This document shows positions 3,979 to 8,079 of a stretch of 64,000 nucleotides of DNA, piece after piece. Origin of the DNA: Rhizobium sp. CIAT894 (GTDB lineage: Bacteria; Pseudomonadota; Alphaproteobacteria; Rhizobiales; Rhizobiaceae); contig NZ_CP020947.1 in assembly GCF_000172795.2 (NCBI RefSeq), positions 1,925,001-1,989,000 of the forward strand, in the 5' to 3' direction. Position numbers and translations under genes: made by a program. Numbering within the stretch: the first letter of the stretch is position 1; the number at the start of each line of letters is the position of its first letter. The notes below the pieces were generated by a model. The model ran no database searches. It had not been told where the DNA came from and saw nothing but the letters and a program-made list of their open reading frames with translations.

Positions 3979-5391
3979 TCAAGTCTGCCCAAGCCAGGCG
4001 GCGCAGTCTGCCAATGCGCGGCGTGCAATCAGCTGCCGTTTCATGATCGTCTTGTCCTTGCCGCGGAAACGCTTGACGCCTTCTGGCTTGACGATCGAAC
4101 CCGGCTCGAGCTCCGGAAACAGCCCGAAATTGATGTTCATCGGCTGGAACGACCTCTTGCCCGGCTCCTCGTCGGTGACGATATGGCCGCCGGTGATATG
4201 ACCGAGCAGCGAGCCGAGCGCCGTCGTCGCCGGCGGCAGCGAGATGGCTTCACCCTTGCGTTCGGCGGCAGCGAAACGCCCGGCCATCAGCCCGACGCTG
4301 GCGCTTTCCACATATCCCTCGCAGCCGGTGATCTGGCCGGCGAAACGCAGGCCGGGCCGAGATTTCAACGTTAGCGACGGGTCGAGCAGGGTGGGAGAGT
4401 TGATGTAGGTGTTGCGGTGCAGACCGCCGAGACGGGCAAATTCCGCATTTTCCAGACCCGGGATCATCCGGAAGATTTCCGACTGCGCGCCATATTTCAG
4501 CTTCGTCTGAAAGCCGACCATATTGTAGAGCGTGCCGAGCGCATTGTCCTGGCGTAGTTGCACGACGGCATAGGCTTTCACCGTCGGGTTATGCGCGTTG
4601 GTCAGCCCCATCGGCTTCATCGGCCCGTGGCGCAGCGTCTCGCGGCCGCGTTCGGCCATCACCTCGATCGGCAGGCAGCCGTCGAAATAGGGCGTGCCTT
4701 CCCATTCCTTGAAACCGACCGTGTCGCCCGCTATCAGCGCGTCGACGAAGGCATTGTATTGCGCCTCGTCCATCGGGCAGTTGATGTAATCCTTGCCGGT
4801 GCCGCCAGGACCGACCTTGTCGTAGCGAGACTGATACCAGCAGATATCCATGTCGATGCTCTCGCGGTAGACGATCGGCGCAATGGCGTCGAAGAAGGCG
4901 AGCGAATCTTCGCCGGTTTGCGCCTGGATGGCGCTGGCAAGCGACGGCGCCGTCAGCGGTCCGGTGGCGACGATGGCAAGATCCCAGTCCCGCGGCGGCA
5001 GGCCGGTAACCTCTTCGCGCACGACCGTGATGAGCGGGTGGTCGTGGATCGCTCTGGTCACCGCCTCGGAGAAGCCATCGCGATCGACGGCGAGCGCGCC
5101 GCCGGCCGGCACCTGATGCCGATCGGCAGTGGCCATGATCAGCGAGCCGGCCATGCGCATCTCGGCATGGATGACGCCGACGGCATTGCTGGTGGCATCG
5201 TCGGAACGGAAGGAATTGGAGCAGACCAGTTCGGCAAGGCCGTCTGTTTTATGTGCATCCGTGCCGCGTACCCCGCGCATTTCATGCAGGATGACGGGAA
5301 CGCCGGAATTGGCGATCTGCCAGGCGGCTTCCGAGCCGGCAAGCCCGCCGCCGACGACGTGGATGGGGGAATAGGAAGAGATCGTGTTCAT
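3979..5391 (-). CDS. trmFO: TrmFO, FADH2/folate-dependent tRNA (uracil-54-C5) methyltransferase
   Basis: 470 aa. Makes ribothymidine at position 54 of tRNA using methylenetetrahydrofolate as carbon donor and FAD/NAD(P)H as reductant. The N-terminal FAD-binding Rossmann motif is [16 protein letters not shown], followed by [12 protein letters not shown] and, further on, [22 protein letters not shown], all characteristic of TrmFO/Gid proteins. The C-terminus carries [17 protein letters not shown] and the [14 protein letters not shown] segment. Length matches the family. It is a single gene facing the secDF cluster; its promoter must lie in the short space next to the DUF1127 terminator. Confidence 0.97.
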
Positions 5392-5437
5392 CCCGGGCTG
5401 ATATCATGTCGGCAGGTGCGATCCAACACCCCGGAAT

Positions 5438-5463
5438 CAAAAACGGCGCCCTGCGGCGCCGTC
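5438..5463 (-). terminator. Intrinsic terminator of the first DUF1127 gene
   Basis: Read on the minus strand, an 8-bp stem ACGGCGCC/GGCGCCGT with a 4-nt loop is followed directly by TTTTT. It lies about 50 bp after the DUF1127 stop and before trmFO. Confidence 0.8.
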
Positions 5464-5510
5464 TTGGGAGCATCACGCTCGCTACTAGCGGGCCGTTAAC
5501 GGCCGGCTAA

Positions 5511-5654
5511 TTAGCGAAACGAGCGGGATGCGATATTGCGGATGTCGTAACGGCTGACGCCGATATCGGACAGGGTCTGGTTCGAAAGGCCGCCTAGTTC
5601 GTTGAGCGTACGGCGGTAGCTGAGCCAGCTTTTTGCAATGCGGATCGGGTTCAT
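5511..5654 (-). CDS. DUF1127 small protein (first copy)
   Basis: 47 aa, starting MNPIRIAKSWLSYRRTLNEL. The central sequence L(S/T)..(T/E)L.DIGVSRYDI is the DUF1127 hallmark, and the C-terminus is arginine-rich. DUF1127 proteins in Rhodobacter (CcaF1) and Agrobacterium bind RNA or affect phosphate and carbon metabolism; the role here is unknown. TTTGAGGAAAA lies just upstream as a ribosome-binding site. It belongs to a cluster with a second DUF1127 gene and a CCUCCUCCC-loop RNA, all on the minus strand. Confidence 0.85.
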   Translation of the reverse strand: MNPIRIAKSWLSYRRTLNELGGLSNQTLSDIGVSRYDIRNIASRSFR

Positions 5655-5744
5655 TGTCTTTTTCCTCAAACAAATGTCCGCTGGATGGCGGGATCGCCTA
5701 TCTCTCTGCGGTTGATGTTTATATAGGCGATCTCCGTCTTATTG

Positions 5745-5788
5745 TGCAGTGCAAATAATTGGCGTCTGCCATGCAATTGTGCAGTGTG
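5745..5788. promoter_or_regulatory. Paired TGCAGTGCA-type boxes upstream of DUF1127 gene 1
   Basis: TGCAGTGCA at 5745-5753 and the near copy TGCAGTGTG at 5780-5788 lie about 90 and 125 bp upstream of the first DUF1127 start. On the minus strand the first reads TTGCACTGCAC. The same box recurs at 6751-6759 upstream of the CCUCCUCCC RNA. The TGC-N3-GCA symmetry is compatible with a PhaR-like repressor site, but the regulator is a guess. Confidence 0.35.
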
Positions 5789-5837
5789 ATGCTCGTCAAT
5801 TAAGCGGTGAATATTTTTTAAGCGGGCTAACGACCGG

Positions 5838-5869
5838 GAAAAACATGCAACTGCCGCGGCGGTTGCATG
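5838..5869 (-). terminator. Second tandem terminator after DUF1127 gene 2
   Basis: On the minus strand, CATGCAACCGCC...GGCAGTTGCATG forms a nearly perfect 12-bp stem followed by TTTTT. It follows the hairpin at 5881-5910, so transcripts of the second DUF1127 gene meet two stops in series. Confidence 0.65.
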
Positions 5870-5880
5870 AAGACAAAAGA

Positions 5881-5910
5881 AAACGCCCGCTGTGGGTACA
5901 GCGGGCGTTT
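5881..5910 (-). terminator. Intrinsic terminator after DUF1127 gene 2
   Basis: AAACGCCCGCTGT/ACAGCGGGCGTTT is a perfect inverted repeat with a short loop. On the minus strand it is followed by a T-rich run (GTTTTCTTTTG). Confidence 0.8.
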
Positions 5911-5920
5911 CAACCGAGAA

Positions 5921-5949
5921 CGATCCTGCTTGGGAGGAGCAGCGGATCG
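5921..5949 (-). ncRNA. CUCCUCCC-loop hairpin in the 3' UTR of DUF1127 gene 2
   Basis: On the minus strand, CGATCC/GGATCG plus an inner GCT/AGC stem display the loop GCTCCTCCCA. It begins 7 bp after the DUF1127 stop and is followed by the terminator at 5881-5910. A CU-rich loop just after a DUF1127 gene is the arrangement described for the CcaF1-CcsR RNAs of Rhodobacter, where 3' UTR-derived small RNAs arise by processing. Here there is a single such loop. Confidence 0.6.
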
Positions 5950-5956
5950 CCTGGAA

Positions 5957-6103
5957 TTAGCGGGAAGAAGCCTCACGGGCAACGCGATGGATGTCCGAAC
6001 GGTCGATGCCGAGGTCATGCAATTCGCGGTTGGTCATGCGGCCGAGTTCCGTGACGGTCTGACGATACTTGCGCCAATTGTTGAAAGAGCGAGAGAAGTT
6101 CAT
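5957..6103 (-). CDS. DUF1127 small protein (second copy)
   Basis: 48 aa, MNFSRSFNNWRKYRQTVTEL then MTNRELHDLGIDRSDI, the DUF1127 core, and an Arg-containing tail ending ASSR. It resembles the first copy in layout but is diverged in sequence, so this is an old paralogy. GGAAAGGGGCTTACC lies upstream of the ATG. Its 3' UTR holds a CUCCUCCC-loop hairpin and two terminators. By analogy with Rhodobacter CcaF1, it may be a small RNA-binding regulator; this is inference. Confidence 0.85.
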   Translation of the reverse strand: MNFSRSFNNWRKYRQTVTELGRMTNRELHDLGIDRSDIHRVAREASSR

Positions 6104-6530
6104 GGTAAGCCCCTTTCCGAGGGTTTCATCTGCCAGCAGCCACCGATCGGCGCTGACCTCTATTTGATGACCGGAATATATGTTGCGCCGCGAAAGACTA
6201 AAACAGCCAAGTTTTCAGATCACCTATGCGGTATTCGCAATGCTCATGGGATGTGTGACGCAGACTTACCATTTTTTGGTCAACGAATAGGCAGAATGGC
6301 GCCGGCGAAACCAACCCGGTTCGAGACTGTCGAGCGGGCGCTGCTGCCGAAAAACGCTGCGCCGTGGGCGAATGCACCCCTCCATCCGCTGCAGGGTGGG
6401 TGCTCCGTGTTGGATCGCAAGCTGCCCATTTGTGGGCGGCCTTGGTAGGCTGGGTGTGACCACAACGTGGCGGGCTGGTGCCATGCGACGGAAATCCTCG
6501 ATCCGCCAATGATTTAATTTGGTTTTTGCC
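6104..6530. other. Intergenic region without a recognised gene
   Basis: This 427-bp stretch separates the second DUF1127 gene from the CCUCCUCCC RNA. Open frames here lack ribosome-binding sites and family features. It must hold the promoter of the second DUF1127 gene on the minus strand, but no unambiguous -35/-10 pair was found. Confidence 0.4.
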
Positions 6531-6725
6531 GAGCAAAAACGCCCGCCGGGGGAGGATCCGGCGGGCGCATTATGGTGACTGGCAACTGGGAGGAGGATTG
6601 TTGCCAGCCTATCGCAGCGCGCTGGGAGGAGGAGTGCGCAGCTGCGAATCTCGTCACGGACAAAGGATCCGCGGGCATCCGGCTGAGCCGGGCCGGGGCG
6701 CCATCCCCGTGCTTCGATGAAGATA
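6531..6725 (-). ncRNA. Cuckoo/CcsR-like small RNA locus with three CCUCC-loop hairpins
   Basis: Read on the minus strand, three successive hairpins carry pyrimidine-rich loops: 6613-6646 (loop ACTCCTCCTCCCA), 6579-6607 (perfect 8-bp stem CTGGCAAC/GTTGCCAG, loop AATCCTCCTCCCA) and 6540-6567 (stem GCCCGCCGG, loop ATCCTCCC), the last followed by TTTTT as an intrinsic terminator. Repeated CCUCCUCCC loops define the alphaproteobacterial cuckoo RNA family, known in Rhodobacter as CcsR1-4: stress-induced and Hfq-associated. The loop is complementary to purine-rich ribosome-binding sites. The 5' end near 6725 is inferred from a candidate promoter. Confidence 0.75.
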
Positions 6726-6731
6726 CAAATA

Positions 6732-6760
6732 GTATGACTATTTGAAATTTTGCAGTGCAA
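6732..6760 (-). promoter_or_regulatory. Candidate promoter of the CCUCCUCCC RNA
   Basis: On the minus strand, TTGCAC (6760-6755) and TCATAC (6737-6732) are spaced by 17 bp, a plausible sigma-70 promoter. The -35 overlaps the TTGCACTGCA box shared with DUF1127 gene 1, so a protein bound there would block it. The -10 is weak, and an alternative sigma factor cannot be excluded. Confidence 0.35.
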
Positions 6761-6975
6761 TAATTTCATGAGGGGTATGCAAAATGCGCATGCCTCTCCG
6801 TCCATATGCTTATATATGCGCTTCCGGCGTTAGCGGCCGGTTAACACCCGGTACAAGTTCGACCAGTGAGGAACTTGTATATTTGTCGCAACAGCGTTTG
6901 CGAACACCCGTGCTGCGGCTATAACGGCATGAGCCGCAGCGCCGCAGTCGGCGTCGCGAACGCAAGGGGTGGAGC

Positions 6976-8079
6976 ATGTATCGCGGCAGATTGGAGCGGG
7001 ATCTCTCGCTTTGGGTGGGCAAGGGTCTGCTGGGCCAGGAAACGGCGGCCACGCTTCTCGCCGAATATGACAGTCGCCCGGCGAGCTTCAGCCTCGGCAG
7101 GGTGCTGATGGCGCTGGCGGCGGTGCTGCTTGCCGCCGCCATTCTGCTGGTCGTTGCCTCCAACTGGGAGGCCATCCCGCGCCTTGTCCGCGTCGGCGTC
7201 ATCCTGGCGCTGATCTGGGTGGTGCACATCGGCGCCGCCCGGATGCTCGCCCGCGGTGCGACAGCGGCCGCAGGCGGCTTGCTGGTCATCGGCGCGATGA
7301 GTTTCGGCGGCGCCATCTCGTTGGTCGGGCAGATGTATCATCTCTCCGGCGACGAGCAGACGGTGATGTATCTCTGGTTCGCCATTGCCACCATCTCGGC
7401 AATCCTGTTCCGTTCGGGCGCAGTGACCGTTGTCGCCGGCTTTCTCTCCTGGGCGTCCTTTGCTGTCTATCTCCAGAATTACGACTCGCACTGGATCGGC
7501 CTCGATCCCTGGATGGCGCCCGTCATGGCGGCGATCACCATCGCCCTGGTGCGCTATACCGGCGCCGAGCGGGCCCGCCATCTCGCCTATCTGCTTTTGA
7601 TCGGCTGGCTCACCTGGCTCTATACTCTTCATGAGGAGATCGCTGTTGCGCTCGCCTTCGCGGTCGGTGGCATGGCGGCCGTCGTCCTGACGGCGTTGCC
7701 GCTTGCGCGCATCGCTTCCCTGGTCAGGACCGCTGGTGCTGCCCCGGCCTTCTACAGCTTCCTCGTCGCGGCGATCGGCTTCCTCTTGCTGCATATCGAG
7801 ATCGAGGATGGCTGGCGGCTGGTGGTGCTCGGGCTGGCGACGCTCGCCGCTTCCGTGCTGGCAATCGCTCTGCACGGCAGGGACAATGGTGCGGTGCGTT
7901 ATCTCGCCTATACGAGTTTTGCCGCGGAGATGCTCTATCTCGCCTCCGTCACCGTCGGCTCCATCCTCGGCACGTCGAGCCTCTTCCTGTTCTCCGGTCT
8001 GGTGGTGGCGTTTGTCGCCTGGATCGTCATCCGTCTCGAGCGGCGGTTTTCGGCGAGTGCACAGGGGGAGCGGGCATGA
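6976..8079 (+). CDS. DUF2157 domain membrane protein
   Basis: 367 aa integral membrane protein. The short cytosolic N-terminus (LERDLSLWVGKGLLGQETAATLLAEY) is typical of DUF2157, followed by about ten hydrophobic helices. The motif SFGGAISLVGQMYHLSG is the family signature. Function is unknown. Its 3' end overlaps the next gene by 4 bp (ATGA), so translation of the pair is coupled; DUF2157 next to a GDYXXLXY protein is a recurrent bacterial pairing. Confidence 0.9.
   Translation: MYRGRLERDLSLWVGKGLLGQETAATLLAEYDSRPASFSLGRVLMALAAVLLAAAILLVVASNWEAIPRLVRVGVILALIWVVHIGAARMLARGATAAAGGLLVIGAMSFGGAISLVGQMYHLSGDEQTVMYLWFAIATISAILFRSGAVTVVAGFLSWASFAVYLQNYDSHWIGLDPWMAPVMAAITIALVRYTGAERARHLAYLLLIGWLTWLYTLHEEIAVALAFAVGGMAAVVLTALPLARIASLVRTAGAAPAFYSFLVAAIGFLLLHIEIEDGWRLVVLGLATLAASVLAIALHGRDNGAVRYLAYTSFAAEMLYLASVTVGSILGTSSLFLFSGLVVAFVAWIVIRLERRFSASAQGERA

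Follow-up and report, generated by a model that had tools for sequence, protein, structure and literature searches.

An alpha-r14 small RNA with a predicted promoter of its own upstream of trmFO in Rhizobium, and its proposed descent from a DUF1127-hairpin transcript

In the window, the whole 64-kb stretch of Rhizobium DNA that was analysed, there is a three-hairpin element on the minus strand which, on its Rfam match, is an alpha-r14 (ar14, NfeR1-family) small RNA and a new member of a known small RNA family. It lies upstream of a GIDA-family gene (3979..5391, minus strand; PF01134, 330.8 bits) that we take to be trmFO and that serves as the conserved downstream landmark. We consider it likely that this RNA has its own promoter, that it acts by occluding ribosome-binding sites, that it is the orthologue of SmelC398 of Sinorhizobium meliloti, and that it descends from a DUF1127-hairpin operon whose ORF is gone here, with a one-hairpin 3′UTR on the neighbouring DUF1127 gene D1. 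Specifically, the promoter would direct a trans-acting sRNA composed of a leader of ~65 nt and three hairpins ending in an intrinsic terminator, and the CUCCUCCC loops, by analogy with NfeR1, would most likely pair with the purine-rich ribosome-binding sites of several mRNAs and repress their translation. The same mode of occlusion as in NfeR1 is suggested because the loops are kept while the stems vary.

The ar14 core spans 6534..6652 on the minus strand and matches RF02344 over the full model length (1-123 of 123) at 109 bits (cut-off 58.8, E 3.1e-19; 4227 Rfam families searched). It forms three hairpins, each with a CCUCCUCCC loop as in the ar14 family, complete in loops 1 and 2 and reduced to TCCTCCC in loop 3. 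Motif counts and the predicted fold place TCCTCCTCCC in loop 1 (6624..6633) and loop 2 (6588..6597), and TCCTCCC at about 6550..6556, in the loop of the third anti-Shine-Dalgarno (anti-SD) hairpin, which is also the terminator (6539..6568). In the predicted fold of the window RNA, all three motifs are unpaired within hairpin loops. These positions bear out what the sequence-only reading had described, namely three minus-strand stems with CU-rich loops, two of them with the full motif, and TCCTCCC in the loop of the RNA's own terminator. The terminator hairpin is one of three terminator-like sites in 5400-7000, where 2.0 were expected. The motif TCCTCCTCCC occurs twice in the 64-kb window, both times in the ar14 core, versus 0.08 expected from dinucleotide shuffles; the shorter CTCCTCCC alone shows no enrichment in the window (3 found, 2.0 expected). 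The minus strand from 6760 to 6520 folds 7.04 sd below dinucleotide shuffles, none of the 200 shuffles being equally stable. Matches to 6C, STnc310, anti-hemB and sX13 (E 0.067 or worse, each below its cut-off) were set aside as chance.

Four contigs of the same genome (6.66 Mb, 6 contigs) carry ar14 loci that exceed the cut-off, six in all, and one further match falls below it. A weaker copy at G000:C6:36876-36991 (L006; 71.7 bits), in which a single TCCTCCC is intact and the LysR-type box is missing upstream, is perhaps decaying. At G000:C5:408760-409230 (L004, L072) there is a second DUF1127-ar14 pair, in which the hairpin of the DUF1127 gene, terminator-like and with a TTCCTCCC loop, precedes a separate box and an ar14 RNA with four motifs.

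Orthologues were found through the adjacent DUF2157 protein, giving 35 loci (34 titled Rhizobium and one Rhizobiales bacterium), or 36 sequences with the window. Conservation of the loops, on which the sequence-only reading had staked its claim, was found: two TCCTCCC loops are kept in all 36 sequences and all three in 32, the third being missing in L032, L035, L036 and L038. Structure was assessed both by scoring one named six-helix structure over the alignment and by folding each sequence singly. The six-helix structure is paired in 96.4% of cells across the 36 sequences, a share that falls to 31-47% once the partners are slid, and changes on both sides occur in 21 cells, compared with 4.1 in shuffles; in 30 of the 36 single-sequence folds, the three motifs are all unpaired inside hairpin loops. 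The RNAalifold consensus mispaired the first anti-SD stem in alignment A1 and recovered the terminator alone in alignment A2, because the stems shift within the alignments.

Upstream of the core, the aligned sequences set the register of a predicted alpha-type sigma-70 promoter at 6727..6755 (minus strand), CTGCAA (6755-6750)-N17-CTATTT (6732-6727), from which transcription is predicted to start near 6720. It resembles the alphaproteobacterial sigma-70 signature given as CTTGAC-N17-CTATAT (PMC8844928). The candidate promoter of the sequence-only reading holds as an alpha-type block conserved among relatives, but a scan of 5400-7000 for E. coli-type promoters found none. A TTGCACTGCA block (6751..6760) overlaps the -35 region and is exact in 31 of the 36 orthologues. 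This block is found twice in the 64-kb window, versus 0.08 expected, at the sRNA promoter (6727-6760) and upstream of the second DUF1127 gene, D2 (5721-5754), in the same register. The multi-hairpin RNA is probably an independent transcript.

A LysR-type box, TGCR-N6-GCAT, lies at 6777..6790 on the minus strand, about -70 to -57 from the predicted start, and TGCRN6GCA is present in 36 of 36 orthologous upstream regions. The box precedes the first hairpin cluster in 38 of 46 loci, where shuffles give 4.8, and is seen in 3 of 45 control stretches; it is enriched only at such islands and not across the window (12 found, 9.9 expected). Neither the published LsrB consensus GCATN3TGN3T nor the NtrC motif TGC-N11-GCA is present at the sRNA promoter in any of the 36 sequences, so that control of the window sRNA probably differs from that of NfeR1, whose regulation is not transferable to it. 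The LsrB consensus is found at four of the five ar14 paralogues of the same genome.

Between the predicted start and the core lies a 5′ leader (6653..6720, minus strand) with three small predicted hairpins (helices 1-3) and no DUF1127 similarity. The leader helices are paired in 94.6-96.7% of cells across the 36 sequences, and covariation is thin, with one pair changed on both sides in 5 of 36 sequences; the helices thus appear conserved more than they are proven by covariation. A 54-aa start-to-stop peptide that runs through the hairpins was rejected as a small protein, the alignment containing indels of one and two bases.

Downstream of the RNA, two DUF1127 genes are encoded on the minus strand. 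D1 (5957..6103, 48 aa; PF06568, 59 bits over 23.3) is preceded by an LsrB-type box, TGCGAATACCGCATAGGTGATCT (6217..6239), in which GCATN3TGN3T is found in the window and in 35 of 35 relatives. D2 (5511..5654, 47 aa from ATG; PF06568, 48.8 bits) is preceded by the TTGCACTGCA block and CTATAT (5721..5754), a looser pattern of which is found in 33 of 35 relatives. The 3′UTR of D1 (window 5980-5878) is the seventh, sub-threshold ar14 match of the genome (34 bits). It contains a single anti-SD hairpin (5918..5951, minus strand), with CTCCTCCC at 5939-5932, followed by the terminator of D1 (5880..5911), identified in the terminator scan. The sequence-only reading had placed the RNA about 430 bp away from DUF1127, unlike in ccaF1-CcsR. 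The gap is right (6534 to the start codon at 6103), but D1 is found downstream of the RNA, the reverse of the order in ccaF1-CcsR, where the gene comes first; moreover, the detachment applies to the three-hairpin RNA and overlooks the one-hairpin 3′UTR of D1.

In the family of the window, this locus is part of an island upstream of trmFO. The trmFO search covered 52 of 60 family genomes, with G004, G005, G006, G039, G043, G044, G052 and G056 omitted as small or incomplete genomes or as having few or weak matches (no ar14 match in G005); the region maps comprise 51 regions plus the window, with G036 excluded at a contig end, and the DUF1127 search covered 30 of the 60 genomes. At least 43 of the 52 family genomes have an ar14 match on the trmFO strand, no more than 1.6 kb upstream of that gene. 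Motif tallies are plain motif counts, the hairpin-scoring script (threshold 9) having missed some first hairpins; by these counts, a cluster of at least two motifs precedes trmFO in 47 of 52 regions, and a DUF1127 ORF followed by at least two motifs within 160 nt is present in 34 of 52. The contrast drawn earlier with the ccaF1-CcsR arrangement does not extend to these 34 family regions, in which a DUF1127 ORF stands directly before two or more hairpins. In 33 of 35 such junctions, the motifs follow at a distance of 20-34 nt from the stop codon. Very long anti-SD arrays are seen upstream of trmFO in G023 (L128; 15 hairpins scored), G027 (L132; 11) and G020 (L125; 11). Among the matches listed, at least 60 of 61 family genomes (GTDB) have an ar14 match, and at least 56 of 61 have one over the cut-off. 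Across the wider order, counting the same genome and a congener, ar14 matches were found in 20 of 61 genomes and exceeded the cut-off in 7 of 61; among the 18 order genomes outside the family with a match, 7 have DUF1127 upstream of at least one motif, on the same strand, in a 1.5-kb flank.

In the close relatives of the window, the order is hairpins, DUF1127, DUF1127, trmFO. Twelve of the 53 rows in a TrmFO tree have the ORF-less order, and 11 of them group with G017 in a single clade (support 95/94); G017 has no island, and G002, the remaining row with the ORF-less order, lies elsewhere on the tree. The architecture labels on this tree were assigned by eye, and G023 is labelled 'none' since its contig ends 745 nt upstream. 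A TTGCACTGCACAAA block followed by a DUF1127 ORF and then by hairpins is found in G013, G046 and, with a different flank, G012, and the TTGCACTGCACAAA block followed by a leader without an ORF is found in the window, G002, G003, G011, G024, G029, G045, G047, G054 and G057. The distance from the block to the first loop is 254-263 nt with the ORF versus 115-206 nt without it; in the ORF-less unit of G019, the block differs by one base, and the distance is 118 nt. Because a matching promoter block precedes hairpins without an ORF in the window clade, the detachment from DUF1127 probably reflects loss of the DUF1127 ORF. No DUF1127 remnant was found in 33 translations of 11 leaders (best E 0.52, compared with 1e-25 or better for intact units), so that the case for ORF loss rests on synteny and flanks.

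On this account, trmFO would once have been preceded by an operon resembling ccaF1-CcsR, a DUF1127 gene with hairpins behind it. The window's clade would then have lost the ORF that separated the hairpins from their promoter, so that the promoter drives the former 3′UTR alone, and the next downstream DUF1127 gene, D1, would have retained one anti-SD hairpin in its 3′UTR. The fuller reading, an mRNA turned regulatory RNA, with the stages promoter-DUF1127-hairpins, ORF-less and D1 one-hairpin still visible in living genomes and now regulated apart by different LysR-type boxes, is in our view about as probable as its opposite. The promoter-DUF1127-hairpins stage is found in most genera, and the ORF-less stage in the window's clade and, separately, in G002. 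A paper by Krieger et al., to judge by its title, reportedly offers a precedent for mRNA-to-sRNA conversion.

Sorting of tandem duplicates is a serious rival to ORF loss, because G024 and G019 contain an ORF-less and a DUF1127-hairpin unit side by side. Under this explanation, the free-standing sRNA and the DUF1127-hairpin operon would be old duplicates of which lineages kept one, and no ORF would have been lost here. The presence of six above-threshold ar14 loci in the same genome, spread over four contigs, fits such a history; the DUF1127 ORF of G013 and G046, however, sits exactly at the place of the leader, between a matching promoter block and a matching AATTCG-type first hairpin, and we hold duplicate sorting to be possible but the less probable account. 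The part of the reading that concerns D1 is more evenly poised, and we give even chances to the alternative that its hairpin belongs only to the D1 terminator and is devoid of trans activity. There is one hairpin, and CUU/AAG pairs partly close its loop in many relatives. Counting the window, 35 of 36 sequences leave at least five of the seven motif bases unpaired in a hairpin loop and 8 of 36 leave all seven unpaired, and 47 of 3600 flank-shuffled controls of the DUF1127 3′UTR hairpin reach at least five of seven as stably. On the other side, a separate terminator follows, and each of 35 relatives out of 35 retains the motif in its place, 15-29 nt behind the stop codon (18 nt in the window), while the stems vary.

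Two further alternatives concern the extent and identity of the three-hairpin RNA. It is rather unlikely that transcription starts no further upstream than ~6655, giving an RNA comparable to NfeR1 with its roughly 122 nt, and that 6720-6653 is promoter or regulatory DNA. The Rfam ar14 model does start at 6652, and the promoters of paralogues L001 and L003 abut the first hairpin; just upstream of 6652, however, there is no CTATAT-like -10 element, the leader retains its three hairpins, and the presumed S. meliloti counterpart is 217 nt long. The sequence-only reading had assigned the RNA to the cuckoo/CcsR family, and the kind is right, a multi-hairpin RNA with anti-Shine-Dalgarno loops, but the family name is not: the CcsR1 model (RF02791) scores 36.1 bits, below its curated cut-off of 65.3, so that by the Rfam threshold the element is not CcsR1. 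The CcsR1 model does align over two hairpins (E 3.5e-07), but the window contains no same-strand DUF1127 ORF between promoter and hairpins, so co-transcription of the CcsR1 type is not found, and we regard processing of a CcsR proper from a DUF1127 mRNA as very improbable.

Since the RNA belongs to a studied family, the main value of this reading is explanatory. Free-standing ar14 RNAs beside trmFO and the CcsR-type RNAs linked to DUF1127 come to share a single syntenic island, and the locus supplies a concrete, testable example of how an mRNA that loses its coding part could give rise to an sRNA. If the ORF-less conversion is true, DUF1127 proteins and an RNA that were once one transcript would now be under different LysR-type boxes. 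The reading also provides two candidate regulators, an ar14 RNA that has a leader and a promoter different from that of NfeR1, and a one-hairpin DUF1127 3′UTR, both of which bear on post-transcriptional control of nutrient uptake and nitrogen in alphaproteobacteria.

The closest characterized relative is NfeR1 (Smr14C2, SmelC397) of S. meliloti, which the window RNA resembles in its ar14 match over the cut-off, its three hairpins with CCUCCUCCC-type loops, its several copies per genome, its sigma-70-like promoter and its LysR-type box, which lies some 60-70 nt ahead of the start. NfeR1 is described as having an LsrB site at -72 to -60 and as acting independently of Hfq; through three redundant anti-SD motifs it silences the mRNAs of ntrB and of two transporters, the site of action being their translation initiation region (PMC10746234). 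Of the six NfeR1-type copies of S. meliloti, only one is described as reliably detected by Northern blot under the conditions tested (PMC7143759). Unlike NfeR1, the window RNA has an extra 5′ leader of ~65 nt, a third loop with only TCCTCCC, and a promoter without the LsrB consensus or the NtrC motif.

SmelC398 (sra38/Sm7) is a still closer counterpart in position. According to Schlueter et al. (PMC2873474), SmelC397 (NfeR1) occupies 1667491-1667614 on the minus strand, and SmelC398, a sequenced RNA of 217 nt, occupies 1667766-1667982, also on the minus strand and just upstream; by coordinates, the window RNA has this same place beside NfeR1, and 217 nt fits a leader plus core. Among the matches listed, G063 has two tandem ar14 cores and two DUF1127 ORFs before trmFO. 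When its coordinates are superimposed on those of the S. meliloti pair, the upstream core maps inside SmelC398, which extends 77 nt beyond it in the 5′ direction; the promoter layout of the downstream core is that of NfeR1. The listed 5′ end of SmelC398 lies ~19 nt inside the predicted start. On these coordinates, the window RNA is probably the orthologue of SmelC398, and we infer that Rhizobium is without an NfeR1 copy at the place upstream of trmFO. No function for SmelC398 was found in the literature searched. The NfeR1-type core of G063 (L160, 1632420-1632230) has promoter type GCATAGGTG in common with D1 of the window, and their downstream products differ.

CcsR1-4 of Rhodobacter sphaeroides are described as processed from the 3′UTR of ccaF1 (PMC8625941). 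The DUF1127 gene lies upstream of the RNA there, and CIN1 is the name given to the pairing of short DUF1127 genes and CcsR-like RNAs (PMC10253847). The CCUCCUCCC loops and the link to DUF1127 are also seen here, and the ccaF1-CcsR order, DUF1127 followed by hairpins, is that of most trmFO-upstream regions in the window's family; unlike CcsR, the three-hairpin RNA of the window has its own predicted promoter, lies upstream of a DUF1127 gene and scores below the CcsR1 cut-off. The trmFO island with the ORF-less conversion was not found in the literature searched, although part of it may be in Reinkensmeier and Giegerich 2015. SmelA075/SmelA099 and the cuckoo RNAs (Reinkensmeier et al. 2011; Reinkensmeier and Giegerich 2015) carry this loop motif in three or four hairpins and occur in several copies per genome in Rhizobiales. 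The window has adjacent hairpins with motif loops and two DUF1127 genes, and may on that description be likened to a cuckoo/CIN1 locus.
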